Assembly (NCBI RefSeq): GCF_907164845.1
Contig: NZ_OU015430.1
Coordinates: forward strand, 434,001 to 498,000
Direction of reading: 5' to 3'
From: Lysobacter luteus
GTDB taxonomy: Bacteria; Pseudomonadota; Gammaproteobacteria; Xanthomonadales; Xanthomonadaceae
Length of the DNA: 64,000 nt
A program made the position numbers and the translations under genes. This document shows positions 5,076 through 48,190 of this stretch, one piece after another (positions within the stretch are counted from its first letter, which is position 1; the number at the start of each line of letters is the position of its first letter). The notes beneath the pieces are model-generated. The model was not told the origin of the DNA, made no database searches, and saw nothing but the letters and a program-made list of their open reading frames with translations.

Positions 5076-5087
5076 TAACATGTGAGG
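5076..5087 (+). promoter_or_regulatory. -10-like TAACAT six bases before the start codon
   Basis: TAACAT at 5076-5081 is followed by six bases (GTGAGG) and then the ATG of the transpeptidase gene. A sigma-70 start site seven bases past the -10 would fall on the A of the ATG, predicting a leaderless mRNA. No good -35 hexamer is visible. The same geometry recurs at five other genes in this window. Confidence 0.4.
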
Positions 5088-5909
5088 ATGGTCCGCACCC
5101 ATCCCCTTCGCGTCCTGTCGCGTGCCGCCGTCGTCCTGGCCGTTGCCACGATCGCCGGCTGCGGCAGCACCCCTGACCCGGTCGACGCGGCCGTCCGGCC
5201 TGCGCCCGTACCGGCCACCCGCACTGTCGAAGTGCCGCGGCCGCACGCGCCGACGCTGGCCGAGCGGCTCGCCCTCGCCGCGCCATCCGCCGATCCGCAG
5301 GTCATCGAGTTGGCGCTCGAGGCGCAGCGCTGCGCGACGCTGGACGGCCAGATCGGCTCGGTCGAGCGCTTGGCGGTCATCGACTACTCGCGCCCTTCAA
5401 CCGAGCAGCGCCTGTGGGTGTTCGACCTCACCGCCGCCGACCTGCTGTATTCCGAGCACGTGGCCCACGGCAAGTACAGCGGCGGGAACATGACCACGGA
5501 GTTCTCCAATAGCGAGGGCAGCTTGATGTCGAGCCTGGGTCTGTTCCGCACCGCCGAGACCTACGTGGGCGGCAACGGCTACTCGCTGCGCATGGACGGG
5601 CTGGAGCCGGGTTTCAACGACCGTGCGCGCGAGCGGCTGATCGTGATGCATGGCGCCGACTACGTGGATCCGCGCCAGGCGTTGCAGCAGGGCCGGCTGG
5701 GGCGCAGCTTCGGTTGCCCGGCCGTACGCGGCGAGATCGCGCAGGAACTGATCGACACGCTCAAGGACGGGCAGTTGCTGTTCGCCTACTACCCGGACAG
5801 CCAGTGGCTGGAGGGTTCACGCTTCCTGGGGTGCGACAGCGCGGGTGCAGGCGCTGTCGCTTCAGTCGCCAGCAAGGCTGCGCGCGGGGTTTCACGCGCC
5901 GCCGAATGA
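5088..5909 (+). CDS. Murein L,D-transpeptidase catalytic domain family lipoprotein
   Basis: A 273-residue cell-wall enzyme of the YkuD_2 type. The N terminus VVLAVATIAGC is a lipoprotein signal with a lipobox ending at Cys. The catalytic region contains RSFGCPAV, matching the S-x-GCP core with the nucleophilic Cys, preceded by the GNGYSLRMDGLEPG segment typical of the family. It should make or edit L,D cross-links or attach proteins to peptidoglycan. An in-frame GTG two codons upstream is possible, but the -10-like hexamer six bases before this ATG favours it. A second, different L,D-transpeptidase and an M23 peptidase follow on the same strand, giving a small wall-remodelling cluster. Confidence 0.85.
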   Translation: MVRTHPLRVLSRAAVVLAVATIAGCGSTPDPVDAAVRPAPVPATRTVEVPRPHAPTLAERLALAAPSADPQVIELALEAQRCATLDGQIGSVERLAVIDYSRPSTEQRLWVFDLTAADLLYSEHVAHGKYSGGNMTTEFSNSEGSLMSSLGLFRTAETYVGGNGYSLRMDGLEPGFNDRARERLIVMHGADYVDPRQALQQGRLGRSFGCPAVRGEIAQELIDTLKDGQLLFAYYPDSQWLEGSRFLGCDSAGAGAVASVASKAARGVSRAAE

Positions 5910-5950
5910 GCCTCGCGCAGCATCGATCCAAACCCCATGGAATCGATCGC

Positions 5951-6961
5951 ATGAAGCCTGTCATCCCGAGCCCTGCCGCGTCGTCCGGCATTCCTTCGCG
6001 CGTCGCCGTGCTGGCGCTGGCCTGTTCGCTGGCGCTGGTCCCGTACGCAGTGTCGGCGCAGGACGCCACCGGCGATCGCGCCACGGCCAACGATGCGGTG
6101 ACGACCACCGTCGAGGCAGGCGACTCCGGGTCGGCTGTGCTGCGCGCGCAGGTGCTGCTGGACCGTGCGCACTTCTCGCCCGGCGAGATTGATGGTGCGT
6201 ACGGCAGCAACACCCGCCGCGCGATCGAGGGCTTCCAGCGCAGCCGCGACCTGCCGGTCACCGGCACCGTCGACGCGGCGACCTGGGAGGCGCTCGACCT
6301 GGACACCGCCGATGTGCTGGTCTCCTACACCCTGACCGATGCCGACGTGACCGGACCGTTCAGCACCATTCCGGCGGACATGGAAGCCAAGGCCGAACTC
6401 GAGCGGCTCGGCTACTCCTCGGCGCTGGAGGCATTGGGCGAAAAGTTCCACGCCAGCCCGGCGCTTCTGAAGCGGCTGAATCCCGATGTCGCGCTGGAGG
6501 CTGGCGCGAACTGGCGGGTACCCAACGTCGCCGCAGCATCCTTGCCGGAAGGCGGCCATGTGGTGGTCGACAAGTCCGATGCGGTGGTGATGCTGGTCGA
6601 CGCCGAAGGCGCGACCGTCGCCCAGTGGCCGGCGACGATGGGCAGCTCGCACGACCCGCTGCCGATTGGCGAGTGGGAGATCAAGGGCGTGGCCAACGAT
6701 CCGGTGTTCCACTACAACCCGGATTTGTTCTGGGATGCGGATCCGAGCCACAGCAAGGCCAAGATCGCCCCGGGCCCGAACAATCCGGTCGGCGTGGTCT
6801 GGATCGACCTGTCGAAGGAGCACTACGGCATCCACGGGACGCCGGAGCCGTCGACGATCGGCAAGACCCAGTCGCACGGCTGCATCCGCATGACCAACTG
6901 GAGCGCGCGCACGCTGGCCGAAGCGGTCGGCCCGGGCACGCGTGCGGTCCTGCGCGAATGA
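5951..6961 (+). CDS. L,D-transpeptidase with peptidoglycan-binding domain
   Basis: A 336-residue exported transpeptidase. It has a signal peptide (residues 1-37, ending AVSAQ), a PG_binding_1 three-helix domain (about 55-115, GEIDGAYGSNTRRAIEGFQ), a middle region and a C-terminal YkuD domain with the conserved HG and SHGCIRM, Cys311 being the predicted nucleophile. Members form 3-3 cross-links in the periplasm using a tetrapeptide donor. The start is the first ATG giving a complete signal peptide; no strong ribosome binding site is seen. It lies 41 bases after the lipoprotein transpeptidase and 61 before the M23 gene, so the three may be co-transcribed. Confidence 0.92.
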   Translation: MKPVIPSPAASSGIPSRVAVLALACSLALVPYAVSAQDATGDRATANDAVTTTVEAGDSGSAVLRAQVLLDRAHFSPGEIDGAYGSNTRRAIEGFQRSRDLPVTGTVDAATWEALDLDTADVLVSYTLTDADVTGPFSTIPADMEAKAELERLGYSSALEALGEKFHASPALLKRLNPDVALEAGANWRVPNVAAASLPEGGHVVVDKSDAVVMLVDAEGATVAQWPATMGSSHDPLPIGEWEIKGVANDPVFHYNPDLFWDADPSHSKAKIAPGPNNPVGVVWIDLSKEHYGIHGTPEPSTIGKTQSHGCIRMTNWSARTLAEAVGPGTRAVLRE

Positions 6962-7022
6962 CCGCGCCTGACCCAAGCCGCCGCGCTGTCGGCTTCGGCA
7001 CCAGCGGTCTCGTGGGGCCGCG

Positions 7023-7760
7023 ATGCTGAGGCTTGCGCTGGTGTTCCTCGCCGGCCTGCTGGTGGGCGCAAACCTGGTGTATTTCGTGATGACCCGCGGC
7101 CAGGCCGACCCGGATGCGGCGCTGGTGTTCCAACGCGAGCGCAGCCAGCACGCCGTGCCGGCCGACACCCCGGCGGCGCCCGCCGAGCGCGTCGAGGCAC
7201 CAGCCCCGCCCCAGGACAAACCCGCCCCGGCCTTCGGCCCGTTGCCGGCCGAGCCTGGTCACACGAGCGGAACACCGGCGCCGGTCGAGCGCCCGCGAAC
7301 CGCGGTCCCGGCGGCCGGCGCAGGCGGATTGATCGTGCCGGTGAGTGGCATCGCGCCAGCGCAACTGTCCAACACCTTCGACGACGCCCGCGGCCAAGGG
7401 CGGGTGCACGAGGCGCTCGACATCATGGCGCCGCGTGGCACCCCGGTGGTCGCCGTGGCCGATGGCACGGTCGAGAAGCTTTTCGCCAGCGACCGGGGTG
7501 GACTGACGATCTACCAGTTCGAGCCGAGCGGCCGTTACGCGTACTACTACGCTCACCTCGACCGCTACGCCGCGGGGCTGGCCGAGGGCGACCGGCTGCG
7601 ACAGGGGCAGGTGGTCGGTTACGTCGGCAGCACCGGCAACGCCAGCGATGACGCGCCGCACCTGCACTTCGGGATCTTCGCCCTCGGGCCGGAGAAGCGC
7701 TGGTGGGAGGGCACCGCGATCAACCCGTATCCGCTCCTCACCGGCCGCCCGACGCCGTAG
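7023..7760 (+). CDS. M23 family metallopeptidase (LytM/peptidoglycan endopeptidase type)
   Basis: A 245-residue membrane-anchored or secreted protein with a hydrophobic N terminus (residues 3-23), a Pro/Ala-rich linker of about 75 residues and a C-terminal LytM domain. The zinc ligands are visible as HxxxD (H129, D133 in HEALD) and HxH (H213, H215 in PHLHFG), with the usual extra His178. Active M23 enzymes cut peptide cross-links in peptidoglycan. All metal ligands are present, so it is probably an active hydrolase rather than a degenerate EnvC-like activator. It closes the wall-remodelling cluster and converges with the membrane protein gene that follows. Confidence 0.9.
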   Translation: MLRLALVFLAGLLVGANLVYFVMTRGQADPDAALVFQRERSQHAVPADTPAAPAERVEAPAPPQDKPAPAFGPLPAEPGHTSGTPAPVERPRTAVPAAGAGGLIVPVSGIAPAQLSNTFDDARGQGRVHEALDIMAPRGTPVVAVADGTVEKLFASDRGGLTIYQFEPSGRYAYYYAHLDRYAAGLAEGDRLRQGQVVGYVGSTGNASDDAPHLHFGIFALGPEKRWWEGTAINPYPLLTGRPTP

Positions 7761-7768
7761 CGGCGGCG

Positions 7769-9054: not shown

Positions 9055-9106
9055 GCCAAGGTGATTCGCACGGGCGCGCCGGTTATCACACGCGACCGCG
9101 GATTTC

Positions 9107-9799: not shown

Positions 9800-9858
9800 C
9801 TGTTGCTCCGATCCGCGGGCGCGCCGGACGGCACCACCCCCTTCCTGTCGAAGAATCC

Positions 9859-14450: not shown

Positions 14451-14474
14451 CCAGACCCCCGCGAAAACCAACCG

Positions 14475-32232: not shown

Positions 32233-32616
32233 TCAGCGCCGGTAGATCCAGTGCCGGGACACCAGGAAGCCGAACCCCCCGAGCAGCACCTCGATGGCGG
32301 GCTTCGCCAGCCACGACCACTTCAGCCCGGCCACGTCGTCGATGACGCCCATCGACCAGGTGCTGATTGCGGTGGTCAGCAGCCACAGGAGGATGAAGCG
32401 CAGGAACTGGCGGCGGCCCACGGCGGTATCGTCGCCGGCGAAGGTGAAGCGGCCGTTCAACCAGAACCCCAGCAGCGCCCCACTGACGCGGCCGGCGATG
32501 TTTGCCGGTTCAACCGGCAGGCCGTTGTGGCTGAGCAACACCATCACGCCCCAGTCGACCAGGTACTGCAGCGCGCCGACCAGCACGAAGGTGCGGCCTT
32601 GCCGGGTCAGGCTCAT
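32233..32616 (-). CDS. GtrA family membrane protein
   Basis: A 127-residue protein with four predicted membrane helices covering the GtrA domain (FVLVGALQYLVDWGVMVLL, then NIAGRVSGALLGFWLNGRFTF). GtrA proteins are thought to flip or transfer lipid-linked sugars during surface glycan modification. AGGAG lies upstream, and the ATG overlaps the stop of the upstream large membrane gene (ATGA), so the two are coupled. A longer frame upstream is not needed. Confidence 0.88.
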   Translation of the reverse strand: MSLTRQGRTFVLVGALQYLVDWGVMVLLSHNGLPVEPANIAGRVSGALLGFWLNGRFTFAGDDTAVGRRQFLRFILLWLLTTAISTWSMGVIDDVAGLKWSWLAKPAIEVLLGGFGFLVSRHWIYRR

Positions 32617-34628
32617 TCCGATCCGCTCCTTGCCGGGACGTGCCACCACTCCAGCGGGGCGGCGCTGGCCCTGGGCGCCGCGCCTGCCCGTTGCAGGCCG
32701 GCGTGCCGTGCCGGCGACGTCGTGGCGGGGTCAAGCACGACTTCCGATATGCGGTGGCGTCGCAGCAACGCCTGCCACTCCGCGCCCGACGGGTCCTGGT
32801 CCGCGCGCGCGGCATCGGCCTGCAGCACGGGCGCGTACCAGTCGACGGTGCGTCCGCGCCCGGCGAGCTCGGCGTGGAACGGGTTGCTCAACAGCAGGAC
32901 CACGGCATCGGGGGGCGCCTGTTCGCGGATGCGCGCGATCAACACGCGCTCGGGCGCGCGTTCCTCGAACAGGGCGGTGTCGTTACCCAGGCCAAGCAGG
33001 CTGCGCTTGACCCCGCCGGTGTGCAGCAGCCACTGGGCATTGGCCTGGAAGGCTAGGTCGAGCACGCACAGGCCGACCAGCAGCGCGGCCGCCCGGCGGG
33101 GGACGAGCCACGCCTGCACCGCCAAAGCGGCGGCCGGCAGGAGCAACACCATGCCCGGGTGGACGTAGCGGGCGTACTGCAGCGGCAACAATGGCAGCAC
33201 GACCGCCAACCCGGCGCAGATCGCCAGCCCGCGCCCGCGGCGTTCCAACAGGCCCGCCAGCCACGCACCGGCCAGCGCGATCAGCACGAAGCCCGCGCCG
33301 CCGTCCCAGCCTTCCAGGTAGCGGTCCGTGTCGAAGGTCAGTTGCCACGGCAGCAACGGCGACAACCCGGCCTGCCAGCGGGGATCATCGAAATCCACCG
33401 CGGGGAAATAGCCGGACTCGAACCAGCCATTGAACAGCGGCAGCACCGGGTTGCCGCTGACCCACCATGCCTGCGCGTAGCTGGGCAACGCGACCACGAG
33501 CATCGAAAGCAGCGCGAGTGCCCAGCCGCCCGGTCCGGCGCCGCGACCGATTCCGCGCGCCACGCCCCATGCCAGCAACGGCGCGGCCGCAATGCCATGA
33601 AGCGGCTTCAACGCGACCAGCAGTCCGAACAGCAATGACGCGACCAGCAGTCGTCTCTTGACGGTGGGGTCCAGCACCACGACCGCGAGCGCCACCATTG
33701 CGGCGGTGGCAGGGCCTTCCGTCTGCATCCCGCCGAGCAGGCCAGCGGTCATCGGCAACGTGGCGAACAGCGCCAGCGTGGCCCAGCGTGCCCAAGGCTG
33801 CAGCCCGACCAGGGCGCCTACCTGCCACAGTCCGGCGGCGGTCGCCAGCAGCCAGCCCAGGTTGACCGCGCTGCGCGCCTCGGCGCCGGACACCACCTGC
33901 GCGACCGCCTGCAGGACATCGCCGGCCCATGGCGCCAATGCCCAGACCTGATGGGTCGGGTCCAACGCGTACCGTCCGTTGACCAGCAACTGCCACGGCA
34001 GGCCGAGGTGATAGGCCAGGTCGTCGTACTGCATCGTTGGCAGCCACGCGGCGGCAGACCCCAGGCCGAGCGCCACGACGGCCCAGCCCGCGGCGCGCGG
34101 ACTGGCCGCAACCGCATCCCGCCAGGCGGCGGCGCACTGCGCGGCCTGCAGCCGCAGCGCGCCCCGGCCCAGATAGACGACCAGCAACAGGGCGGGCAGG
34201 TAGACCCACCACCGGTGGACCGGCAAAGAGATCAACCACCCGAGTACCGCCGATAGCACCGCCAGCCCGCTCGACACGGCCAGCACCGGATGGCCGGTCC
34301 CCGCCAGCCGACTGCCAAACGCCATCGCGGCGACGAACAGGAGCACGCCGGCCAGAGCCGGGACCGGTCCGGTCAGGGCGACGAAGACCAACAGCCAGAC
34401 CGCGGCCAGCGCATAGGCCCACGGCCATTGCCGCCATGCGCGCAGCGGCCAGGCCACCAGCGCCACGAGTCCGGCCAGCAACAGGCTCTCGCCAAAGCGC
34501 CCCCACGGCAGCACCTGCCATGACCGGTGCGCGACCAGGCCAAGGAGACAGGCCAGCGGGCCACTCCAGATCAGGCCTTCGAGGAGGATGTGGCGACGCG
34601 TGGCGTGGGTCGGTGACAGGGTCGGCAC
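32613..34628 (-). CDS. Large multi-membrane protein, glycosyltransferase-39-like
   Basis: A 671-residue integral membrane protein with roughly 12 predicted spans and a C-terminal soluble region of about 130 residues (ARIREQAPPDAVVLLLSNPF). Topology resembles the ArnT/PMT class of lipid-sugar-using glycosyltransferases (GT-C fold). The loop after the first helices has no clear catalytic DE or DD pair that I can point to with certainty, so the enzymatic call is tentative. GTG is the start, with a -10-like TAGGAT six bases before it. Coupling to gtrA supports a role in modifying a surface glycan. It is divergent from glmU. Confidence 0.72.
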   Translation of the reverse strand: MPTLSPTHATRRHILLEGLIWSGPLACLLGLVAHRSWQVLPWGRFGESLLLAGLVALVAWPLRAWRQWPWAYALAAVWLLVFVALTGPVPALAGVLLFVAAMAFGSRLAGTGHPVLAVSSGLAVLSAVLGWLISLPVHRWWVYLPALLLVVYLGRGALRLQAAQCAAAWRDAVAASPRAAGWAVVALGLGSAAAWLPTMQYDDLAYHLGLPWQLLVNGRYALDPTHQVWALAPWAGDVLQAVAQVVSGAEARSAVNLGWLLATAAGLWQVGALVGLQPWARWATLALFATLPMTAGLLGGMQTEGPATAAMVALAVVVLDPTVKRRLLVASLLFGLLVALKPLHGIAAAPLLAWGVARGIGRGAGPGGWALALLSMLVVALPSYAQAWWVSGNPVLPLFNGWFESGYFPAVDFDDPRWQAGLSPLLPWQLTFDTDRYLEGWDGGAGFVLIALAGAWLAGLLERRGRGLAICAGLAVVLPLLPLQYARYVHPGMVLLLPAAALAVQAWLVPRRAAALLVGLCVLDLAFQANAQWLLHTGGVKRSLLGLGNDTALFEERAPERVLIARIREQAPPDAVVLLLSNPFHAELAGRGRTVDWYAPVLQADAARADQDPSGAEWQALLRRHRISEVVLDPATTSPARHAGLQRAGAAPRASAAPLEWWHVPARSGSE

Positions 34629-34640
34629 CGCGGCATCCTA
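34629..34640 (-). promoter_or_regulatory. -10-like TAGGAT six bases before the GTG start
   Basis: On the minus strand TAGGAT is followed by GCCGCG and then GTG of the large membrane gene, predicting a transcript that starts on the start codon. The facing -10-like TAGAAT for glmU lies 14 bases away, so the two promoters overlap. No strong -35 is seen. Confidence 0.42.
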
Positions 34641-38084: not shown

Positions 38085-39953
38085 TCAGTCCGCCGGGGCG
38101 TATCGCAGGGTCACGAACCACTCGCGTCCGGGCTGGTTGTAGAACGCCACGGTCTCGTAGTCGCGATCGAACACGTTGGCGACGCGGCCCTGCAGGGTGA
38201 GGGCGCGGGTCAACGCGTATTCCGCGCGCAGATCCAGGGTGGCACGCCCGGCCAGCCGCATCGTGTTGGCGACGTCGTCGTAGCGCGGCCCTTCAGCGAT
38301 GCCGGTCAGTCCAATGCGCAGGTCGCCGAAGGCGCGGTCGAGCTCGACCCGCGCGCCGTGGCGGGCGCGGCGTGGCAGTTCCAGGTCGGTATTGAAGGTC
38401 CGGTTACGGGTGTCGAGCCAACTCAGGCTGGCGGCCACCTGCCAGTCGGCGACGTCGGTGGCGATGCCGAGCTCGGCGCCGCGCATGCGCGCACGCTCGA
38501 CATTGTTGGGCAAGCCGATCGCCGCGTCGAAGGCGATCAGGTCCTCGACCCTCGTGTCGAATGCATCCAGGCGCAGGTCGACCGTGCCGTTCTTCCAGCC
38601 GACGCCCAGCTCGGCCGTCTCCGACTCCTCCGGCCGCAGGTCCGGGTTGCCGAAGAACGGGTAGTACAGCTCGTTGAAGGTCGGCGCCTTGAACGCGGTC
38701 CCCCAGCCCGCACTGACCCGCCAACCGCCGGCGAAATCGAGGCCCCAGGCGAGGCTGCCGGTGGTGTGCCCGCCGAACTGCTCGTTGTCATCGCGGCGCA
38801 CCGCCGCCTGCAGGCCATGGCGCCCCGCGCGCGCCTGGTACTGGGCGAAGGCGGCGCGGTTGTCGCGCTCGTCGGTGACGTACACGGTGTCGCCGTCGAC
38901 ACGGTCGCGTACCCAGTCCACGCCCACGCTGAGCAGGTGGTCGCGGGCCAGGCCGAAGTCGCCCTGCAGGCCGGCGCTGTCGCGGTCGGTGTCGAAGAAG
39001 CCGATGTAGGTGCCGTGGTTGAACTGGTCGGAGGCATCGACGTTGCGGCCGGCCGTGAGCTTGAACTGGGCGGTGTCGGATGGTCGCCAGCGCACGCTGC
39101 CGCCGACCACCTGCTGCAGGGTCTCGGAGCGGTTGCTGTAGTCGCCGTCGAAGTCGTTCTCACCCTCGCTGCGCAGCCCCTGGGCCGACAGTTGCCAATG
39201 GCCGAGGTCGATGCCCGTACGCAACGAGAGCGCGTGCTGGACGTAGCCGTCGAGGTCGGGTTCGGGGGTGCTGATGAAGCACCCGCCCGAGAACGGGGTG
39301 GGCTCGGCGACGTCGCAGGCGTTGAATCCTTCGGTGCGCTGGAACGCGTAGTCGGCGCCGAACCAGGCACGCCCTTCGCGGCCGGCGAAGCCGACGCCGT
39401 ACTCGTGCGCGCCGTGGCTGCCGCCACCGATGTGCATGCGCGGCGCCCAGCCGGCGGCGTCGCGGCGGGTAAAGATCTGGATCACCCCGCCGATCGCCTC
39501 GCTGCCGTACAGGCTCGAGCGCGGCCCGCGGACAATCTCGATCCGCTCGATCAGCGCGACCGGCAGGTTCTGCAACGACACCAGGCCGGAAGTCGGCGAG
39601 CCCACGCGGATGCCGTCGACCAGCACCACGATGTGGTCGGACTCCGCGCCCCGCAGGAACAGCGTGGTCAGCTTGCCGGTGCCGCCCTGGTTGGCCAGCG
39701 ATACGCCGGCGCGGCCGGCGAGCAGGTCCGGCAGCGAACGCGCCTGGCTGCGCTCGATCGCATCGCGGTCGATCACCTCCACCGGCGCCAGCACGGCGTC
39801 GACATCGAGCAGGGTGCGGGTGGCGGTGACGACCACTTGGTCCAGGTCCTTCGCCTGCGGTGGCGCCGCGGCCTCGGCATGGGCGGGGGCGGCCGACAGG
39901 GCCGGGATGAGCAGCGCCACGGCGGCGGCGAGCGGGGCAAGGCGGAATCGCAT
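38085..39953 (-). CDS. btuB: TonB-dependent vitamin B12 receptor BtuB
   Basis: A 622-residue outer-membrane transporter. A signal peptide (residues 1-26, ending AHAE) is followed by the TonB-box-like DQVVVTATR (about 38-46), the plug domain (about 55-170, including RGAESDHIVVLVDG and the SEAIGGVIQIFTR end) and a 22-strand barrel ending with WFVTLRYAPAD. Length and plug motifs fit BtuB closely. The cobalamin riboswitch in its leader makes B12 uptake the clear function. It is convergent with glmS; no btuC or btuD is nearby. Confidence 0.94.
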   Translation of the reverse strand: MRFRLAPLAAAVALLIPALSAAPAHAEAAAPPQAKDLDQVVVTATRTLLDVDAVLAPVEVIDRDAIERSQARSLPDLLAGRAGVSLANQGGTGKLTTLFLRGAESDHIVVLVDGIRVGSPTSGLVSLQNLPVALIERIEIVRGPRSSLYGSEAIGGVIQIFTRRDAAGWAPRMHIGGGSHGAHEYGVGFAGREGRAWFGADYAFQRTEGFNACDVAEPTPFSGGCFISTPEPDLDGYVQHALSLRTGIDLGHWQLSAQGLRSEGENDFDGDYSNRSETLQQVVGGSVRWRPSDTAQFKLTAGRNVDASDQFNHGTYIGFFDTDRDSAGLQGDFGLARDHLLSVGVDWVRDRVDGDTVYVTDERDNRAAFAQYQARAGRHGLQAAVRRDDNEQFGGHTTGSLAWGLDFAGGWRVSAGWGTAFKAPTFNELYYPFFGNPDLRPEESETAELGVGWKNGTVDLRLDAFDTRVEDLIAFDAAIGLPNNVERARMRGAELGIATDVADWQVAASLSWLDTRNRTFNTDLELPRRARHGARVELDRAFGDLRIGLTGIAEGPRYDDVANTMRLAGRATLDLRAEYALTRALTLQGRVANVFDRDYETVAFYNQPGREWFVTLRYAPAD

Positions 39954-40107
39954 TCGATAGGTCTCCAGGCGCACGGCGGCCGTCCCCGGCATCGACCGTG
40001 CAGTATCGGGAAGTCGCGTGGAGAGGGTGGTCGAACGGACTCGGAGGGCGGACAGGCGCCGACGTCGCCGCCGCCATGCCCGCCGCATCGCAACCAGTCA
40101 GCTCCGC

Positions 40108-40292
40108 GGCCGGTCTCCGGACTCGCGAGGGTGTCGTTCGACACAGCCGTGGCGCCTTCCCATGCGATTGCACAGTGGCGGTGAGCCTTGGCCGGACCCG
40201 CCTGCGCGGATCCACTCGCTTACCGTTGCGGGGGCAGTGCCGGAATGGTCCGGGTGCTGTGCACCCGACGTCACCGGCTTCCCGTTTCAACC
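40108..40292 (-). promoter_or_regulatory. Cobalamin riboswitch (B12 element) in the btuB leader
   Basis: On the minus strand the leader carries, in order, GGGAAGCCGGTG, a GGTGCACAGCACC hairpin, CCGGCACTGCCCCCGCAACGG (split here: CCGGCACTGCC then CCCGCAACGGTAA), CACTGTG, and GAGTCCGGAGACCGGCC. These are the conserved blocks of the class I adenosylcobalamin riboswitch, including the GCAAC B12 box. It lies about 155 bases before the btuB ATG. Binding of cobalamin is expected to lower btuB expression. The 418-base interval holds this element, its leader and a -10-like TACACT at 40332-40337, with no gene. Confidence 0.93.
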
Positions 40293-40371
40293 CGCCGGCA
40301 GGACGCCGCCGGGTCACCTCGAAGCGCGGGCAGTGTACGCGATCGGACCGGGTGCGGGCCGGGGATGGTCG

Positions 40372-40722
40372 TTACGCCTCGTCCGGGCGCTCGGGCACCG
40401 TGTCGGCGGTCAGCACGGTGGTGCGTACCGGCCCCGCCGGGGGCTTGTGGCGCGGCGCCGGCAAGCCGGCGATCGCAGCTTCCGCCGCGCTCACCAGCTC
40501 GGTCCGGCGGGCATCGGGGACTTCCTGCCAATGGCAGTCCTGCAGGGCGCCTTCGATCGCGTACAGCAGGTTGAGGGTGGGTTTGAAGCCCGCGCGCTTG
40601 ACCCGCATGAAGGCTTCCACCGGCCCGGCCTCGGCGATGTCCTCGCGCGTGCGCAGACCGACCTGGCGCAGCCAGGCGGCCGACTTGGGCCCGATGTTGC
40701 GCAGCTTGGCGGCCTCGTTCAT
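40372..40722 (-). CDS. TfoX/Sxy C-terminal domain protein
   Basis: A 116-residue protein consisting mainly of the TfoX C-terminal domain (KLRNIGPKSAAWLRQVGLRTREDI onward, residues 5-75), a helix-hairpin-helix-like fold, with a Pro-rich tail. In full TfoX/Sxy this domain is joined to an N-terminal domain and controls competence genes; stand-alone copies are common and uncharacterised. The ATG overlaps the stop of the upstream reductase gene (ATGA). That pairing suggests co-expression rather than a shared pathway. Confidence 0.85.
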   Translation of the reverse strand: MNEAAKLRNIGPKSAAWLRQVGLRTREDIAEAGPVEAFMRVKRAGFKPTLNLLYAIEGALQDCHWQEVPDARRTELVSAAEAAIAGLPAPRHKPPAGPVRTTVLTADTVPERPDEA

Positions 40723-41201
40723 GCGAGCGACTCCAGGTAGACCCGGGCCAGTGCTTCCATGCCGCGCTGGTCGTCCTCGTCGAAGCGACCGGTGCGCGGA
40801 CTGTCGATATCGAACACGCCGACCAGGCTGTCGCCGTGCACCAGTGGCACCACCACTTCCGAACGCGACGCCGAATCGCAGGCGATGTGGCCGGGGAAGG
40901 CGTCCACGTCGGCCACGCGCTGGGTCTGGCGACTGCTGGCGGCGGCGCCGCAAACGCCCTTGTCGAGCGGGATCCGCACGCACGCCGGCTGCCCCTGGAA
41001 CGGCCCGACGACGAGCTCCCGGCCGTCGAAGAAGTAGAAGCCGACCCAGTTGAGGTCCGGCAATGCGTGGTAGACCAGCGCCGACAGGTTGGCGGCGTTG
41101 GCGATGCGATCGGATTCGCCGGACAGCAGCGCGCGGGCCTGCGCGGCGAGCTCGGCGTATTGCTCCGGCTTGCTGCCGGACAGGGCGCTGGCGGTGAACA
41201 T
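40719..41201 (-). CDS. msrC: Free methionine-(R)-sulfoxide reductase, GAF domain
   Basis: A 160-residue GAF-domain enzyme of the fRMsr type that reduces free methionine R-sulfoxide using thioredoxin. The three-cysteine pattern is present: GVCGAAA, a Cys in HIACDSASRS, and surrounding GPFQGQPACVRI. The conserved NWVGFYF and EVVVPL segments define the substrate pocket. No ribosome binding site is seen; instead a -10-like TACACT ends six bases before the ATG, pointing to a leaderless mRNA. It shares a 61-base divergent region with bioD. Confidence 0.9.
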   Translation of the reverse strand: MFTASALSGSKPEQYAELAAQARALLSGESDRIANAANLSALVYHALPDLNWVGFYFFDGRELVVGPFQGQPACVRIPLDKGVCGAAASSRQTQRVADVDAFPGHIACDSASRSEVVVPLVHGDSLVGVFDIDSPRTGRFDEDDQRGMEALARVYLESLA

Positions 41202-41213
41202 CGCGCGAGTGTA
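41202..41213 (-). promoter_or_regulatory. -10-like TACACT six bases before the msrC start
   Basis: On the minus strand TACACT is followed by CGCGCG and then the ATG, so the predicted transcription start is the A of the start codon. The divergent bioD promoter lies in the same 61-base interval. Confidence 0.45.
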
Positions 41214-41250
41214 GCAGCGGTGCACACGCGACTCCGGCCCCGCGAATCCC

Positions 41251-41262
41251 TACGATGCGCGG
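41251..41262 (+). promoter_or_regulatory. -10-like TACGAT six bases before the bioD start
   Basis: TACGAT is followed by GCGCGG and then the ATG, predicting a leaderless bioD mRNA. A -35 at normal distance would overlap that of the divergent msrC promoter. No consensus -35 or ribosome binding site is visible. Confidence 0.45.
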
Positions 41263-41967
41263 ATGATCTCCCCACCCGCGACTCCCCCCCGGCTTCCCGC
41301 GCGCTTCTACGTCACCGGCACCGACACGGGTGTAGGCAAGTCGGTCGCATCGGCGGCGTTACTGCATGCACTGCGCGCGCGTGGCGGCCGGGTGGTCGGG
41401 ATGAAGCCGGTCGCCAGTGGTTGCGAGGTTGTCGAGGGCGGTTGGCGCAACGAGGACGCGCTGCTGTTGCAGGCGGCCAGCGACCCGCGGCCGGCGTATG
41501 CAGACGTCAACCCGTACGCATTGCGTGCGCCGGTGGCGCCCGAGCTGGCGCTGCGAGACGAGGGCATCGAACTGTCGCTGGCGCGGATCCTCCAGGCCTA
41601 CGAGCGGCTTGCCGCGCAGGCCGACCGGGTCGTGGTCGAGGGTGTCGGTGGCTGGATGGCCCCGTTGTCGGCGACGCTCGACCAGCTCGACCTGGTACGC
41701 GCGCTGGACCTGCCGGTGGTGCTGGTGGTCGGGATGCGGCTGGGATGCATCAACCATGCGCGACTGACCGTGCGCGCACTGGCGGAGGACGGCGTCAGGC
41801 TTGCCGGCTGGATCGCCAACGAGGTGGAACCGGCGATGCCGCGGCTGGACGAAAACGTCGCGATCCTGCGCATGCGCCTGCCCGCACCTTACTGGGGGCG
41901 GCTGCCGCATGCCCCGACGCCCGACCCGGCCCGGCTTGCCTGCCACCTGCAGCTGCAGGCGGTCTGA
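41263..41967 (+). CDS. bioD: Dethiobiotin synthase
   Basis: A 234-residue ATP-dependent enzyme that closes the ureido ring of dethiobiotin from DAPA and CO2. The P-loop GTDTGVGKS (residues 17-25) and the second conserved EGVGGWMAPLS segment are present, with NEVEPAM for purine binding near the C terminus. Size is normal. bioD stands alone here, away from bioA, bioB, bioF and bioC, which is unusual for E. coli but common in xanthomonads. No ribosome binding site is seen. Confidence 0.94.
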   Translation: MISPPATPPRLPARFYVTGTDTGVGKSVASAALLHALRARGGRVVGMKPVASGCEVVEGGWRNEDALLLQAASDPRPAYADVNPYALRAPVAPELALRDEGIELSLARILQAYERLAAQADRVVVEGVGGWMAPLSATLDQLDLVRALDLPVVLVVGMRLGCINHARLTVRALAEDGVRLAGWIANEVEPAMPRLDENVAILRMRLPAPYWGRLPHAPTPDPARLACHLQLQAV

Positions 41968-42070
41968 ACTTTCGCGCCGGCGTAACCCTGCGGCGTTAGC
42001 GTTCCGCCACTGCGACGGGCGCCATGGGCCGGGCTGACTTCCGGCATGGGGACATGGCAAGCGTCATCAC

Positions 42071-42082
42071 TAAACTGCGCGG
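42071..42082 (+). promoter_or_regulatory. Candidate -10 with GCGCG discriminator before the RND adaptor
   Basis: TAAACT followed by GCGCGG about 30 bases before the adaptor ATG. The 13-base string from the CACT onwards is almost identical to that before the methyltransferase gene at 14439. No clear -35. Confidence 0.4.
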
Positions 42083-42108
42083 TACACGAAATGGATGACG
42101 AGGCCCCC

Positions 42109-43242: not shown

Positions 43243-43254
43243 CGGGAGCACGCG

Positions 43255-46200
43255 ATGGTCCTCTCCGACATCTCCATCCGCCGCCCGGTCTTCGCCACCG
43301 TCATCAACCTGGTGGTGCTGCTGCTGGGCATCATCGCCTACGACCGCCTGGCCGTCCGGCAGATCCCCAACGTCGACACGCCGGTGGTGACGGTCAACAC
43401 CAGCTACCCCGGCGCGAGCGCGCAGGTGATCGAGTCGCAGGTGACCCAGCCGATCGAGGACGCGCTGTCCGGGGTCGAGGGCATCGAGTACATGCAGTCG
43501 GTCAGCCGCGAGCAGTCCAGCCAGGTGACCATCCGGTTCCGGCTCGACCGCGACCCCGACGGTGCCGCCAGCGACGTCCGCGACCGTGTTGCGCAGGCTC
43601 GCCAGCGGCTGCCGGACGAGGTCGATGAGCCGATCGTGCAGAAGCAGGAGGCCGACGCCGAGCCGATCATCTTCCTGGCGTTCTCCTCCGACCAGCACTC
43701 GCAGGTCGAGATCGCCGACTACGCCGAACGCCTCGTCAAGGACCGCATCCAGCAGATCCCCGGCGTCGCCCAGGCCCAGGTGTTCGCCAGCACCTATGCG
43801 ATGCGCGTGTGGATCCAGCCGCAGCGGCTGGCGGGCTTCGGCCTGACGCCGGGCGATGTCGAGCAGGCGCTGCGCAGCCAGAACGTGGAGATCCCGGCCG
43901 GCCGCGTGGAAGGGACCGACCGCGAGTTCACCGTGCTGCCGCAGACCGACCTGCAGACCCCGGAGGAGTTCGGCAACGTCATCCTCGGCGAGTCCAACGG
44001 CTACCTGGTGCGGCTCAAGGATGTCGCCAGGATCGAGCTGGGCGCCCAGCAGGAGCGGTTCCGGGCGCGCTACAACGGCGTCAACGCGGTGCCGCTGGGC
44101 ATCACCAAGCAGGCCGTGGCCAATCCGCTGGAGATCTCCGAAGCGCTGGAGGTGCTGATCCCGCAGATCCAGCGCACGCTGCCCGAGGGCCTGCAGCTGG
44201 ACATCGCGTTCGACTCGACCATCTTCATCGAGAAGTCGATCGAGGAGGTCTACAAGACCGTGATCGAGGCGGTGCTGCTGGTCGTCGTGGTGATCTTCCT
44301 GTTCCTTCGCAGCTGGCGCGCCACGCTGATCCCGCTGGTGACGATCCCGGTCTCGCTGATCGGCGCGTTCGCGCTGATGCTGGCGTTCGGCTTCACCATC
44401 AACACGCTGACGCTGCTGGCGATGGTGCTTGCGATCGGCCTGGTGGTCGACGACGCGATCGTGATGCTGGAGAACATCTACCGGCACATCGAGGAAGGCA
44501 TGCCGCCGTTCCAGGCGGCGCTCAAGGGCAGCAAGGAGATCGGGTTCGCCATCGTGGCCATGACCCTGACGCTGGCGGCCGTGTACGTGCCGCTGGCGTT
44601 CTCGACCGGTCGCACCGGCAAGCTGTTCGTCGAGTTCGCGATGACCCTGGCCGGCGCCGTGCTGGTCTCGGGTTTCACCGCGTTGACGCTGTCGCCGATG
44701 ATGTCGTCCAAGCTGCTGCGCCACGAGAAGAAGCATGGGCGCTTCTACGAGGCCGGCGAGCGCGTGTTGCGGCGGCTCGACGACGGTTACCGCGCCGTGC
44801 TGACACGGGCGCTCAAGCTGCGCTGGGCGGTGGTGGGCGTCGGGCTGGTGGTGTTCGCACTGGCCGGCGTGCTGTTCATGACACTGCCGCGCGAGCTGGC
44901 ACCCCAGGAGGACCAGGGCGTCATCATCGGCTTCGGCCAGGCGCCGGAGGGTTCGACCGTCGGCTACACCGACCGCTACGCGCGGATGATGGAGCAGGGC
45001 TTCGCGAGCGCGCCCGGCGTGGTGAGTTACTTCCAGCTGGTCGGCTTCCCGTCGGTGACCAACACCATCGGGTTCGTGATGCTCGAAGACTGGGACCAGC
45101 GCGACGCCGCGGTGCAGGAGGTGCAGGGCGCGCTGTTCCCGCAGTTCATGGGCATCCCGGGGATCATGGCGTTCCCGACGCTGCCGCCGCCGCTGGGCCA
45201 GGAAGGCTTCGGCCAGCCGGTCAACTTCGTGGTGCAGAGCACGGGCACCTGGGAGGAGCTTGGCGTCATCGTGCAGAAGATGATGGCCAGGATGGCCGAG
45301 AACCCGAACCTCACCAACCCCGACAGCGACCTCAAACTCAACAAGCCGCAACTGAGCATCACCGTCAACCGCGAGAAGGTGGCGGCGGTGGGCAGCGACG
45401 TGGCGACGGTCGGGCGCACGCTCGAGTCGTTGCTGGGCGGGCGCAACGTGACCCGCTTCAAGCGTGGGAGCGAGCAGTACGACGTGATCGTGCAGGTCGA
45501 GGACGCCGACCGCCGTACCCCGGGCGACCTGTCCAACATCTACGTACGCGGCGGCGACGGCCAGATGGTGCAACTGTCGAACCTGGTCGACGTGCGCGAG
45601 ACGGTCGCGGCCAAGGAGCTCAACCACTTCAACAAGCTGCGCGCGGCGACCATCAGTGCCGGTCTCGCGCCGGGCTACCCGATGGGCGAGGCGCTCGACT
45701 GGATGGAGGCGGCGCTGGCGGAAGTCGCGCCGGAGGCCACCTACGACCTGTCCGGGCAAAGCCGCGAGTTCCGCGAGTCGTCCAGCGACTTCGCGATGAT
45801 CTTCGGGCTCGCGGTGGTATTCATCTTCCTGGTGCTGGCCGCCCAGTTCGAAAGCTGGGTCGACCCCATGGTGATCCTGCTGGCGGTGCCACTGGCGGCG
45901 TTCGGCGCGTTCCTCGCGCTCACGCTGAGTGGCGGCAGCTGGAACATCTACTCGCAGATCGGACTGGTGACACTGGTGGGCCTGATCGCCAAGCACGGCA
46001 TCCTGATCGTGGAGTTCTCCAACCAGTTGCAGGAGCAGGGCCGGACGAAGTTCGACGCGGTGGTCGAGGCGGCGGCGCTGCGGTTGCGCCCGATCCTGAT
46101 GACCACCGGCGCGATGGTGCTCGGCTCGCTGCCCCTGGCGATCGCCAGTGGTGCCGGTGCCGAGGCACGCAACCAGATCGGCTGGGTGGTTGTCGGCGGC

Positions 46201-46335
46201 ATGGGCATCGGCACCTTCTTCACCCTGTTCGTGGTGCCGGTCATGTACCTGCTAATCGGTCGCGACCACCAGAAGGTTGCCGCCCGCCAGGCGCGGCGCG
46301 AAGCCGAACCCGCGCCGGCCGACCCCGCGGGCTGA
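43255..46335 (+). CDS. RND efflux pump permease, HAE-1 family
   Basis: A 1026-residue inner-membrane proton-driven pump with 12 predicted helices and two large periplasmic loops (about 35-335 and 555-860). The proton-relay residues are visible as DD in GLVVDDAIVMLENIYRH in helix 4. The FSDISIRRPVFA-type N terminus, the SQVTQPIEDALSGVEGI segment and the C-terminal AKHGILIVEFSNQLQE are family hallmarks. It is shorter in loops than AcrB and resembles the MexK/VexF-like branch. Substrates are not predictable. A hairpin follows the stop. It needs a TolC-like partner from elsewhere. Confidence 0.94.
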   Translation: MVLSDISIRRPVFATVINLVVLLLGIIAYDRLAVRQIPNVDTPVVTVNTSYPGASAQVIESQVTQPIEDALSGVEGIEYMQSVSREQSSQVTIRFRLDRDPDGAASDVRDRVAQARQRLPDEVDEPIVQKQEADAEPIIFLAFSSDQHSQVEIADYAERLVKDRIQQIPGVAQAQVFASTYAMRVWIQPQRLAGFGLTPGDVEQALRSQNVEIPAGRVEGTDREFTVLPQTDLQTPEEFGNVILGESNGYLVRLKDVARIELGAQQERFRARYNGVNAVPLGITKQAVANPLEISEALEVLIPQIQRTLPEGLQLDIAFDSTIFIEKSIEEVYKTVIEAVLLVVVVIFLFLRSWRATLIPLVTIPVSLIGAFALMLAFGFTINTLTLLAMVLAIGLVVDDAIVMLENIYRHIEEGMPPFQAALKGSKEIGFAIVAMTLTLAAVYVPLAFSTGRTGKLFVEFAMTLAGAVLVSGFTALTLSPMMSSKLLRHEKKHGRFYEAGERVLRRLDDGYRAVLTRALKLRWAVVGVGLVVFALAGVLFMTLPRELAPQEDQGVIIGFGQAPEGSTVGYTDRYARMMEQGFASAPGVVSYFQLVGFPSVTNTIGFVMLEDWDQRDAAVQEVQGALFPQFMGIPGIMAFPTLPPPLGQEGFGQPVNFVVQSTGTWEELGVIVQKMMARMAENPNLTNPDSDLKLNKPQLSITVNREKVAAVGSDVATVGRTLESLLGGRNVTRFKRGSEQYDVIVQVEDADRRTPGDLSNIYVRGGDGQMVQLSNLVDVRETVAAKELNHFNKLRAATISAGLAPGYPMGEALDWMEAALAEVAPEATYDLSGQSREFRESSSDFAMIFGLAVVFIFLVLAAQFESWVDPMVILLAVPLAAFGAFLALTLSGGSWNIYSQIGLVTLVGLIAKHGILIVEFSNQLQEQGRTKFDAVVEAAALRLRPILMTTGAMVLGSLPLAIASGAGAEARNQIGWVVVGGMGIGTFFTLFVVPVMYLLIGRDHQKVAARQARREAEPAPADPAG

Positions 46336-46344
46336 TCGCGCGCA

Positions 46345-46376
46345 CAAAAAACCCGGCAGCGCGGGCTGCCGGGTTT
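46345..46376. terminator. Bidirectional terminator between the RND pump and phasin genes
   Basis: AAACCCGGCAGC and GCTGCCGGGTTT form a perfect 12-pair stem with a GCGG loop. On the minus strand it is followed by TTTTTTG, an ideal terminator for the phasin gene; on the plus strand it lies a few bases after the pump stop. Confidence 0.85.
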
Positions 46377-46420
46377 CGTGTTCCTGCCGAAGCCGGAGAG
46401 AGAGACGGTGGCGGCTGCGC

Positions 46421-46861
46421 TTACTTCGCCGGCTTGCTGCCCTTGGTCGCGCTGTCGACGTAGGCTTCGGCCTTCTGCGTCGCGTTGCGGGCGGCCTGCT
46501 CGACGTTGGCCTGCGTGGTGCGGGCCGTCGACTCCAGCTGCGCCTTGGCGATGCTGGCGATCTGCTCGTTGGTGCTGACCGTGCGGCCAATCACTTCCTG
46601 GCCGGTGGCGACGCCGCGCTCGATGTTCTCGCGGGCGACCTGCGCGGCCTTCGGCCACAGGTCCTTCAGGCCTTCGGCGTCACGGACCTGGGTGGCTTCG
46701 CCGAGGAAGGCAAACGTGGCGTTGGCGCGGTCCTCGATGGCCGCCAGCTGCAGGCCGAACACGGCCCCGGCGTTGTCGAGGGCGAGGCGGTTGACCTGTG
46801 CCGCGGTCTCGGCGAACTGGCGCGTCGCGGCGGCGAACTGTTCGTTGAACTGCTGGTACAT
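46421..46861 (-). CDS. Phasin family protein
   Basis: A 146-residue all-helical, amphipathic protein of the phasin family, rich in Ala and Gln (FNEQFAAATRQFAETAAQVN). Phasins coat polyhydroxyalkanoate granules, but many family members act in stress responses or bind other surfaces. No PHA synthase gene is in this window. AGGAG lies six bases before the ATG. It has the best-supported minus-strand promoter here and a terminator with a six-T run, so it is a single-gene unit likely to be well expressed. Confidence 0.88.
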   Translation of the reverse strand: MYQQFNEQFAAATRQFAETAAQVNRLALDNAGAVFGLQLAAIEDRANATFAFLGEATQVRDAEGLKDLWPKAAQVARENIERGVATGQEVIGRTVSTNEQIASIAKAQLESTARTTQANVEQAARNATQKAEAYVDSATKGSKPAK

Positions 46862-46912
46862 GGTGGGCTCCTGCTGCTGCGCCGACAAAGGGTTTGCCGG
46901 TTTGTGCGATGC

Positions 46913-46941
46913 AGCATAAACCCGTTTTTGTTGCAATGCAA
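46913..46941 (-). promoter_or_regulatory. Sigma-70 promoter of the phasin gene
   Basis: On the minus strand TTGCAT (46941-46936), a 17-base spacer and TATGCT (46918-46913). Both hexamers and the spacing are good. The start would lie about 45 bases before the ATG, leaving the AGGAG site in the leader. Confidence 0.68.
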
Positions 46942-46943
46942 CA
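46931..46943 (-). promoter_or_regulatory. Candidate PhbF/PhaR-type operator over the phasin -35
   Basis: TGTTGCATTGCAA on the minus strand contains a GTTGCA-N-TGCAAC dyad and matches the consensus TG-N-TGC-N3-GCAA reported for the PhbF regulator of Herbaspirillum. It covers the -35 element, where a repressor would block RNA polymerase. Regulator identity is inferred; no phbF/phaR gene is in the window. Confidence 0.5.
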
Positions 46944-46980
46944 TCCCGCGCTCGGGGCCGTTCAGGCGGCCGCCCGGGGG

Positions 46981-47337
46981 TCATTGACCCCGGTAGCGGC
47001 ACCCCGAGGTGCAGGTCTCATGCACCACCACCTCGCTCAATAGCGGCAGGGCCGGCTTGAGCCGCTCCCAGATCCACACCGCAAGCCGCTCGCTGGTCGG
47101 GTTCTCCAGCCCCTCGACGTCGTTGAGGTAATGGTGGTCAAGGCGCTCGTACAGCGGCTGGAACGCCTGCTTGACGTCGGCGAAGTCCATCACCCAGCCG
47201 CTGTCGGCGCCGATCGCGCCGCTGAGGTGGATCTCCACCCGGAACGAGTGGCCGTGCAGCCGCGCGCACTTGTGCCCCTCGGGGACGTTGGGCAGGCGGT
47301 GCGCGGCTTCGAGGGTGAAGATCTTGAAGATGTCCAT
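46981..47337 (-). CDS. queD: 6-carboxytetrahydropterin synthase QueD
   Basis: A 118-residue enzyme of queuosine and archaeosine biosynthesis, forming 6-carboxytetrahydropterin from dihydroneopterin triphosphate. The zinc ligands are in EAAHRLPN and HGHSF, with the catalytic Cys in GHKCARLHG and HHYLND downstream. Length and motifs are typical. The start codon directly follows a -10-like TAGAAT and GCGCGG, with no ribosome binding site, predicting a leaderless mRNA. It is divergent from the Fnr-type gene. Confidence 0.95.
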
Positions 47338-47349
47338 CCGCGCATTCTA
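47338..47349 (-). promoter_or_regulatory. -10-like TAGAAT six bases before the queD start
   Basis: On the minus strand TAGAAT is followed by GCGCGG and then ATG. The layout is the same as at bioD (TACGAT, GCGCGG, ATG) and predicts transcription beginning on the start codon. Confidence 0.48.
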
Positions 47350-47416
47350 TCGTCCGCCCGCTGTACACCACCGGTCGATCGGCCCGGGAACGCCCCGGTG
47401 CCGGCCTGTCGCGTGG

Positions 47417-47428
47417 CACGATGGCGGC
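47417..47428 (+). promoter_or_regulatory. -10-like CACGAT six bases before the fnr start
   Basis: CACGAT is followed by GGCGGC and then the ATG, the same spacing as the other candidate leaderless starts but with a poorer hexamer. No ribosome binding site is visible. Confidence 0.3.
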
Positions 47429-48190
47429 ATGGAAACCAACGTGGTCGACCTGGCCCAGCTGCGTCGCGGTTGCGCGCAGTGCTCCCTCCAGCAGCTGTGC
47501 CTGCCCGCGGGTATCGGGCAGCAGGATCTGCAGCAACTCGACGATATCGTCAGGCGTCGCCGCCCGGTGGCCACGGGGGAGCGCCTGTTCCGCCCGGGCG
47601 ATGCACTGACGTCGGTCTACGTGGCCCGCGACGGCGCATTCAAGACCGTCAGCACGAGCGAGGACGGCGGCGAGCAGGTGGTCGGCTTCCACCTGCCAGG
47701 CGAGTTGATCGGTCTGGATGCGCTGGGCCACGGCCGCCACCGTTGCGAGGCGGTGGCGCTGACCACGGCGAATGTCTGCGAGGTCCCGTTCGAACAGCTG
47801 GCCACCGTCGCGGCCCAGGTCCCCAGCCTGCAGCAGCAACTGCTGCGCGTGATCGGCCAGAGCGTGGGTCGCGACCAGGACCACCTGGGGATGCTGGTGC
47901 GGCGGCAGGCCAATGAGCGCATCGCGTTGTTCCTGCACGGCCTCGGCGAGCGATTGCGCAATATCGGTGAGTCGGGCAGCCGCTACCGGTTGCCGATGAG
48001 CCGCGAGGACATCGCGCGCTACCTCGGCCTTGCGCTGGAGACGGTGAGCCGCGGTTTCACCCGGCTGCAGGAGGACGGCGTGGTCGCCGTCACCGGGCGG
48101 CGGATCGAGATCCTGCAGCCCGACGAACTCGCGCGCCTTGCGCATGGCGGCGAACCGGCCCCGCCTGTCCAGCGCCGCGCGCGGTCCTGA
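47429..48190 (+). CDS. fnr: Fnr/Anr-type oxygen-sensing transcription regulator
   Basis: A 253-residue Crp/Fnr-family regulator. The N terminus carries CAQCSLQQLC, giving Cys15, Cys18 and Cys24 in the same spacing as E. coli Fnr ligands, and NVCEVPF supplies the fourth at Cys117. A cyclic-nucleotide-like domain and a C-terminal winged helix (about 180-235, SREDIARYLGLALETVSRGFTRLQ) follow. The E..SR recognition pattern (ETVSR) suits TTGAT half-sites. A [4Fe-4S] switch is thus predicted. Such a site stands before ccoN, about 10 kb away. An extra Cys106 is not a known ligand. Confidence 0.93.
   Translation: METNVVDLAQLRRGCAQCSLQQLCLPAGIGQQDLQQLDDIVRRRRPVATGERLFRPGDALTSVYVARDGAFKTVSTSEDGGEQVVGFHLPGELIGLDALGHGRHRCEAVALTTANVCEVPFEQLATVAAQVPSLQQQLLRVIGQSVGRDQDHLGMLVRRQANERIALFLHGLGERLRNIGESGSRYRLPMSREDIARYLGLALETVSRGFTRLQEDGVVAVTGRRIEILQPDELARLAHGGEPAPPVQRRARS

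Follow-up and report, generated by a model that had tools for sequence, protein, structure and literature searches.

Promoter-like hexamers six bases upstream of ATG start codons predict leaderless mRNAs in Lysobacter luteus

Six genes with a -10-like hexamer next to the start codon

A stretch of 64,000 nt from the genome of Lysobacter luteus (contig NZ_OU015430.1, positions 434,001 to 498,000), called the window in the following, contains six genes that are preceded by a hexamer resembling the -10 element of bacterial promoters. They encode an L,D-transpeptidase (ldt), a 671-aa protein with a GTG start at position 34628 (the 34628 gene), a GAF-domain protein (msrC), dethiobiotin synthase (bioD), QueD, and an fnr-type regulator (Table 1). 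The host genome comprises 2.77 Mb in a single contig, and the G+C content of the window is 70%. The presence of the six hexamers, each separated from the start codon by exactly six bases, had been reported in an initial annotation and was confirmed by re-reading the sequence. The same six starts were picked among the 66 window genes by a gene caller that was blind to upstream signals. A further claim, that none of the six genes has a ribosome binding site, did not strictly hold for two of them, as AGGA is present at 34640 and the sequence GTGAGG at 5082 contains a GAGG that directly abuts the ATG of ldt.

Table 1. Coordinates of the six genes and of the -10-like boxes upstream of them
Feature	Positions	Strand	Start codon	Description
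ldt box	5076..5081	+	ATG at 5088	TAACAT-GTGAGG-ATG, gap 6
L,D-transpeptidase gene (YkuD_2; ldt)	5088..5909	+		Pfam PF13645, E 9e-63; predicted leaderless
Box of 671-aa gene	34635..34640	-	GTG at 34628	TAGGAT-GCCGCG-GTG, gap 6
671-aa gene	32613..34628	-	GTG	predicted leaderless, weaker case
msrC box	41208..41213	-	ATG at 41201	TACACT-CGCGCG-ATG, gap 6; TGC just upstream (extended -10)
GAF-domain gene (msrC)	40719..41201	-		Pfam GAF/GAF_2/GAF_3; predicted leaderless
bioD box	41251..41256	+	ATG at 41263	TACGAT-GCGCGG-ATG, gap 6
bioD (dethiobiotin synthase)	41263..41967	+		TIGR00347, 166.8 bits (cut-off 83.3); predicted leaderless
queD box	47344..47349	-	ATG at 47337	TAGAAT-GCGCGG-ATG, gap 6
queD	46981..47337	-		TIGR03367, 111.3 bits (cut-off 89.25); predicted leaderless
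fnr box	47414..47422	+	ATG at 47429	TGGCACGAT (TGn + CACGAT, extended -10-like); CACGAT at 47417, spacer GGCGGC, gap 6
fnr-type regulator gene	47429..48190	+		NF008365, 231 bits (cut-off 228); predicted leaderless

The name msrC was taken over from the initial annotation; the profile searches support a GAF domain only, and the search of this gene (40719..41201) against NCBIfam gave no match. The 671-aa protein had no match in the NCBIfam and Pfam searches at E 0.001. Relatives of this protein (32613-34628, minus strand) were found in 11 of 40 genomes of the family, the own genome counted.

Two gene couples, msrC/bioD and queD/fnr, are divergent pairs. The boxes of msrC and bioD point apart within a gap of 61 bp (41201-41263), with 37 bp between them. 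By eye, the spacing of these two boxes is variable in relatives, and therefore a fixed joint geometry seems not to be needed. Pairing of leaderless divergent genes was also considered as a special arrangement and was rejected, since it was found in 2 of 150 divergent pairs, compared to 1.8 expected (queD/fnr was left out of this count because the fnr box begins with CA).

The hexamer is enriched genome-wide at a distance of six bases

The frequency of the pattern was quantified in a sample of 1.244 Mb, which consisted of 59 stretches of 20 kb each (1.18 Mb) and the window. Genes were called with our own gene caller, which uses coding potential and a start codon prior and makes no use of upstream signals; 1102 genes were called in the sample. 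The gap (or k) denotes the number of bases between the hexamer and the start codon, and k=9 served as a control that shares the codon phase with k=6.

When TANNNT-Nk-ATG was counted independently of any gene calls in the 1.24 Mb, 83 sites were found for k=6 and 40 for k=7, while the other 29 values of k between 0 and 30 yielded 7-38 sites (median 20). A count over the entire genome gave 142 sites for the k=6 pattern, 84 for its reversed form, and 35 for the k=9 pattern. The called genes gave the same picture. Among the 813 ATG genes with 100 bases upstream, TANNNT was found at gap 6 in 52 cases and at gap 7 in 17 cases, and the mean for the other gaps between 0 and 25 was 1.25 (798 genes). For all 1037 starts, 54 hexamers were found at gap 6, whereas 200 rounds of shuffling the 40 upstream bases gave 3.5 on average and never more than 9. 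Within the window, [TC]A-N3-T was present at gap 6 in 7 of the 64 genes with enough flank, with 0.6 expected (P 3e-6); the seventh gene has CAGGCT before 14384 (minus strand). For TA-N3-T alone, the values were 5 of 64 and 0.13 expected (P 2e-7). When the window was excluded, TA-N3-T was found at gap 6 in 48 of 744 ATG starts, with 1.5 expected. The genome-wide count, which the initial annotation had proposed to compare with the expectation from base composition, thus clearly exceeded this expectation in the sample as well as in the whole genome.

The enrichment was specific for ATG. A box at gap 6 or 7 precedes 68 of 798 ATG genes versus 2 of 185 GTG genes (P 9e-5), and TANNNT was found at gap 6 in 2 of 192 GTG genes. 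The spacing counts that do not depend on the caller agree with this ATG preference, and in these counts TTG starts had 24 sites at k=6, without a clear peak. Also for CANNNT-ATG no peak was observed, with 101 sites at gap 6 compared to 73, 111, 106, and 125 at gaps 3, 9, 12, and 15, and 34 at gap 0. The initial annotation had pooled a first-base C with T, and GTG with ATG. Neither pooling is supported genome-wide, as CANNNT showed no clear excess and GTG no excess. The general class is TANNNT followed by ATG. Because of the lack of a genome-wide excess for CANNNT and GTG, the evidence for fnr (CACGAT) and for the 34628 gene has to come from their orthologs. We estimate that the class comprises about 150 genes, or about 6% of the starts; this value is the sum of the gap-6 excess in the whole genome (142 less 35) and the scaled-up gap-7 excess in the sample (40 less 20).

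Properties of the genes with a box at gap 6 or 7

The 71 genes with a box at gap 6 or 7 differed from the others in two respects. Shine-Dalgarno-like words were present upstream of 4 of 71 box genes versus 370 of 942 other genes (P 4e-10). In addition, fewer of the box genes closely follow a gene of the same direction (9 of 71 versus 272 of 942, P 0.002); 62 of 71 versus 670 of 942 are separated from a co-directional neighbor by more than 25 bases or are divergent. A second, broad peak of TANNNT was observed 26-32 bases before other ATG genes, and transcripts started from boxes at these positions would carry leaders of about 20-26 nt. The search for additional promoter elements had little result also for these leadered boxes: as a possible -35 partner, TTG was found in 3 of 102 cases at a spacer of 16 and in 4 of 102 at a spacer of 17, and [TC]TG[AC] in 11 of 102 at a spacer of 17. 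An extended -10 is not a general feature, as TGn precedes 8 of 71 boxes compared to 7 of 102 leadered boxes. TGn was found at 1 of the 9 own-genome CA-N3-T sites at gap 6, and this one is fnr.

An artefact of in-frame stop codons was considered, as TAG or TAA would lie 12 bases upstream of the start. It was rejected because neither TGA-N2-T (0 cases at gap 6) nor TA-N3-[ACG] (8 cases, compared to a mean of 9.1 elsewhere) was enriched. The TAC and TAT forms of the box are enriched at gap 6 as well.

As noted in the initial annotation, bioD and queD both carry GCGCGG between the box and the ATG. This sequence comes directly after the box in 5 of 54 gap-6 genes (two of them in the window), 0 of 17 gap-7 genes, 1 of 23 genes with gaps of 8-19, 1 of 122 with gaps of 20-40, and 2 of 119 with gaps of 41-89. 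A role as a shared spacer motif was rejected, as it is confined to 5 of 54 genes and the spacers of the msrC orthologs vary. The shared GCGCGG thus stands as an observation, but it represents at most a minor spacer preference and may mark a small promoter sub-family.

Conservation of the box in orthologs

The orthologs of the six genes were inspected for boxes; all counts refer to loci and not to independent events, and the Xanthomonas loci are closely related to one another. The clearest conservation of the spacing was found for msrC, orthologs of which were present in 76 of the 80 loci retrieved for bioD. TA-N3-T is situated at gap 6 in 52 of these 76 orthologs and at gap 7 in 2; the box lies further upstream in 13, and 9 have none. 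The arrangement at gap 6 was found in 21 of 21 orthologs of the Xanthomonas group, 20 of 21 of Lysobacter/Luteimonas/Thermomonas, 4 of 5 of Stenotrophomonas/Pseudoxanthomonas, and 6 of 12 metagenome-assembled (MAG) and other genomes. The 52 spacers comprise 38 different sequences. The box and its distance are thus constant while the bases of the spacer vary, as would be expected of a promoter that needs its start on the ATG.

Conservation was moderate for queD, with 19 of 36 orthologs having the box at gap 6 (9) or gap 7 (10); in 3 it is situated further upstream, 13 have none, and one has no ATG. For bioD, ldt, the 34628 gene, and fnr it was restricted to a minority. The closest bioD genes among the loci found are those of Lysobacter arseniciresistens (81%) and L. 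concretionis (79%), although records of the own genome were possibly omitted; L. arseniciresistens is now placed in Novilysobacter (family Lysobacteraceae, Gammaproteobacteria). Six of the 80 bioD loci have the box at gap 6 (L060, L061, L081, L082, L085, and L107), among them both Novilysobacter-like loci, one at gap 7 (L134), and one at gap 8 (L093). In 23 loci, 19 of them from Xanthomonas, a similar box and a G+C-rich stretch lie 28-49 bases before an in-frame ATG, and by eye AGGA or a similar word is often present between box and ATG (the pattern used for these distant boxes matched 32 of 80 loci). In most Xanthomonas bioD loci such a similar box is found 42-46 bases before the ATG, corresponding to a leader of about 36-40 nt. 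We infer that the leadered and the leaderless bioD boxes may go back to one ancestral promoter.

For ldt, 20 other orthologs were listed (21 other loci), and TA-N3-T before an in-frame ATG was found at gap 6 in 5, at gap 7 in 1, and at gap 8 in 2, with CA-N3-T at gap 6 in one further ortholog. Nine other orthologs of the 34628 gene were listed (10 other loci). One (L194) has TAGGAT-N6-GTG, three (L195, L196, and L198) have TA-N3-T at gap 7, one (L193) at gap 9, and the other four have none of these. The 29 other loci listed for fnr include 20 close orthologs (52-77% identity). CA-N3-T is present at gap 6 in 3 and at gap 7 in 3 of them, each time preceded by TGn as judged by eye. Furthermore, L150 has CA-N3-T at gap 8 and L155 has TAAGCT at gap 6, while 12 of 20 lack both CA-N3-T and TA-N3-T at gaps 5-8. 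CACGAT is found at gap 6 before fnr also in L060, and in L061 it lies, by eye, 8 bases away.

Distribution in the family and in the Gammaproteobacteria

When the loci were pooled by group, k=6 stood out from k=3-5 and 7-12 in Lysobacter/Luteimonas/Thermomonas (34 versus 3-8) and in Stenotrophomonas/Pseudoxanthomonas (15 versus 1-8). The result was less clear for Xanthomonas (38 versus 4-34), and no peak was observed for the Rhodanobacteraceae (8 versus 4-10) and for Arenimonas (4 versus 1-4). All 60 sampled genomes of the family, the own genome included, have more sites at k=6 than at k=9, with a median ratio of 2.2 and a lowest ratio of 1.25. The ratio of 4.06 for L. luteus is the fourth of the 60. 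Higher ratios occur in three genomes (G374, 5.19; G174, 4.65; G178, 4.10), and at least eight family genomes are below 1.5. This spread indicates that the use of leaderless transcripts may vary several-fold within the family. In a comparison of 92 genomes of the class, which were picked by eye from 185 and are mainly low-count ones, the ratio of L. luteus was the highest; the median was 1.14, and the next values were 2.14 (same family) and 2.09.

Interpretation and alternative explanations

The DNA sequence itself shows the box with its exact spacing and its preference for ATG, as well as the scarcity of Shine-Dalgarno motifs, the genomic setting, and the conservation. On this basis we regard it as highly probable that the six boxes are sigma-70-type -10 elements that start transcription at the start codon and would yield leaderless mRNAs. 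The hexamers would be parts of housekeeping (sigma-70-type) promoters, and RNA polymerase would begin at the seventh base after the box, i.e. on the A of the ATG. The mRNA would thus have neither a 5′-leader nor a Shine-Dalgarno site, and the ribosome would start on the 5′-terminal AUG, as it does on known leaderless mRNAs. A -10 box with a start on the A of the ATG would account for the spacing, for the absence of Shine-Dalgarno motifs, and for the setting. From these patterns we infer where the 5′-end lies, which type of sigma factor is used, and that the leaderless RNA is translated. The proposal of the initial annotation that adjacent sigma-70 boxes generate leaderless mRNAs is in congruence with the counts, the few Shine-Dalgarno words, the rarity inside operons, and the constant gap at msrC. 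The transcripts of msrC, bioD, and queD are very likely leaderless and that of ldt is likely to be so; for fnr and the 34628 gene, the weakest of the six cases, it is probable.

Several observations weigh against this interpretation. A -35 partner, which in classical sigma-70 promoters lies about 17 bases ahead of the -10 box, was almost absent from the 71 genes with gap 6 or 7, with TTG at spacers of 15-19 found in 1, 5, 1, 1, and 0 cases. GA-N3-T, too, is more frequent at gap 6 (18 of 798 ATG starts, compared to a mean of 5.6 elsewhere and 12 at gap 3). The called starts were not curated, and the caller favors ATG. The control with the reversed pattern in 151 genomes of the order gave mixed results, without an excess at gap 6 in the family genomes G013 (235 versus 287) and G068 (236 versus 259); this control was set aside in favor of k=9 because its composition and codon phase differ. 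Gap 6 was found in 0 of 3 msrC orthologs from Arenimonas and in 1 of 14 from the Rhodanobacteraceae. It is also limited to a minority of the orthologs of bioD (6/80), queD (9/36), ldt (5/20), and the 34628 gene (1/9), and for fnr to 3 of 20 as CA-N3-T and 1 of 20 as TA-N3-T. Two points concern single genes. At called starts CA-N3-T had no clear excess at gap 6 (9 versus a mean of 5.5), which affects fnr. For the 34628 gene, GTG counted without the caller had no peak (TANNNT 24 at k=6 versus 17-39 elsewhere), and its TAGGAT at 34640 includes an AGGA that is located 7 bases before the GTG, i.e. at Shine-Dalgarno spacing.

That the six boxes arose by chance, in upstream regions where short words abound, is hardly conceivable: the CA-N3-T and GTG forms are indeed near chance level genome-wide, but TA-N3-T was found in 5 of 64 window genes and 48 of 744 ATG starts outside, far above the expected values, and the arrangement is conserved at msrC. 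A more serious alternative, which we nevertheless judge to be very improbable, is that TANNNT is a translation initiation element, e.g. an A/U-rich contact site for S1 or the ribosome, in leadered mRNAs that start further upstream. The location of the hexamer at Shine-Dalgarno distance and the rarity of Shine-Dalgarno words in its genes speak for such an element. However, the form TA-N-A-[AC]-T is similar to a -10 box, and other genes have TANNNT at gaps of 26-32. Moreover, a translation element should serve operon-internal genes equally well, yet genes with a box at gap 6 or 7 are rarer there, and in 13 of 76 msrC orthologs the TA-N3-T box lies further upstream instead.

Two further alternatives apply to one gene each. 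At the 34628 gene, the AGGA within TAGGAT might be a Shine-Dalgarno site on a leadered mRNA. Its sequence and spacing fit, GTG starts lack the leaderless signature, and L194 retains TAGGAT-N6-GTG; in contrast, TA...T is kept without the GG in TACCAT (L195), TAGCAT (L196 and L198), and TACGAT (L193), and we regard a Shine-Dalgarno site as unlikely here. For fnr, we regard it as less likely than not that CACGAT has no promoter function and that the gene is transcribed from a different promoter within the 91-bp gap to queD. This would agree with the lack of a clear CA-N3-T excess and with the 12 of 20 close orthologs that have no box at gaps 5-8. On the other side, 6 of 20 close orthologs have TGnCAC-N2-T at gap 6 or 7 (one reads TGGCACACT), L150 has it at gap 8 (TGn by eye), and CACGAT at gap 6 recurs in L060. 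This ortholog pattern has the look of an extended -10 with a first-base C.

With regard to evolution, we hypothesize, with about even confidence for and against, that in this family the promoter box stays fixed, whereas the leader is gained or lost. Genes would switch between leadered and leaderless expression via the stretch between box and ATG, and would be leaderless only with ATG. This view is based on the leaderless arrangement of msrC in nearly all sampled loci of Xanthomonas, Stenotrophomonas, Lysobacter, Luteimonas, and Thermomonas, on its absence from the 3 loci of Arenimonas and from 13 of 14 of the Rhodanobacteraceae, and on that of bioD in the own genome and 6 of 80 loci, with a leadered box in most Xanthomonas.

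Comparison with known systems

Leaderless genes of the Xanthomonadales were already predicted in 2011, and therefore this kind of gene is not new: Zheng et al. (PMC3160421) described TA-led leaderless genes with a TANNNT motif that precedes the start by about 12 bases, in 15 of 239 gamma-proteobacterial genomes (3.0-5.7% of the genes), with the Xanthomonadales and Legionellales as the richest groups. The position of TANNNT and the order agree with our results. In contrast to the genome percentages of that study, single genes were traced across species here, and the value for L. luteus is about 6%. An adjacent -10 motif has been reported for Deinococcus-Thermus (Zhong et al. 2025, PMC12340547), with TANNNT 6-7 bp before the open reading frame (ORF), TACACT as the commonest form, and GGAG as the other signal. 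The distance is the same as in L. luteus, and the msrC box is identical to the commonest form there. However, nearly one third of the D. radiodurans genes belong to that class, compared to about 6% here, and the section headings of that article report functional tests, compared to sequence evidence in our case.

In mycobacteria (PMC4633059), a start codon at the 5′-end of the mRNA is the signal, as is predicted here, and both ATG and GTG work. In contrast, only ATG was enriched in L. luteus, which is closer to E. coli, for which the same article cites less than 10% activity for GTG. Bradyrhizobium japonicum (PMC4842269) is likewise a proteobacterium with a -10-type motif; its leaderless starts were mapped, whereas ours are predicted, and its extended motif TGnTA differs from the L. 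luteus boxes with their few TGn. A literature search on leaderless mRNA and Lysobacter found no paper, and no report of mapped leaderless genes in Xanthomonas was found among the titles and abstract beginnings; the word "leaderless" is absent from the available part of PMC3771888.

For an estimated 150 genes, the sequence alone could suffice to locate starts and promoters with single-base precision, which would aid annotation. The msrC and bioD genes across the family offer the opportunity to test directly how leaderless translation evolves in a gamma-proteobacterium and what it costs. Apart from the six genes, the window contains a cobalamin riboswitch (RF00174) at 40091-40336 on the minus strand (81.8 bits, gathering threshold 31.5), which is situated upstream of the minus-strand gene 38085-39992.

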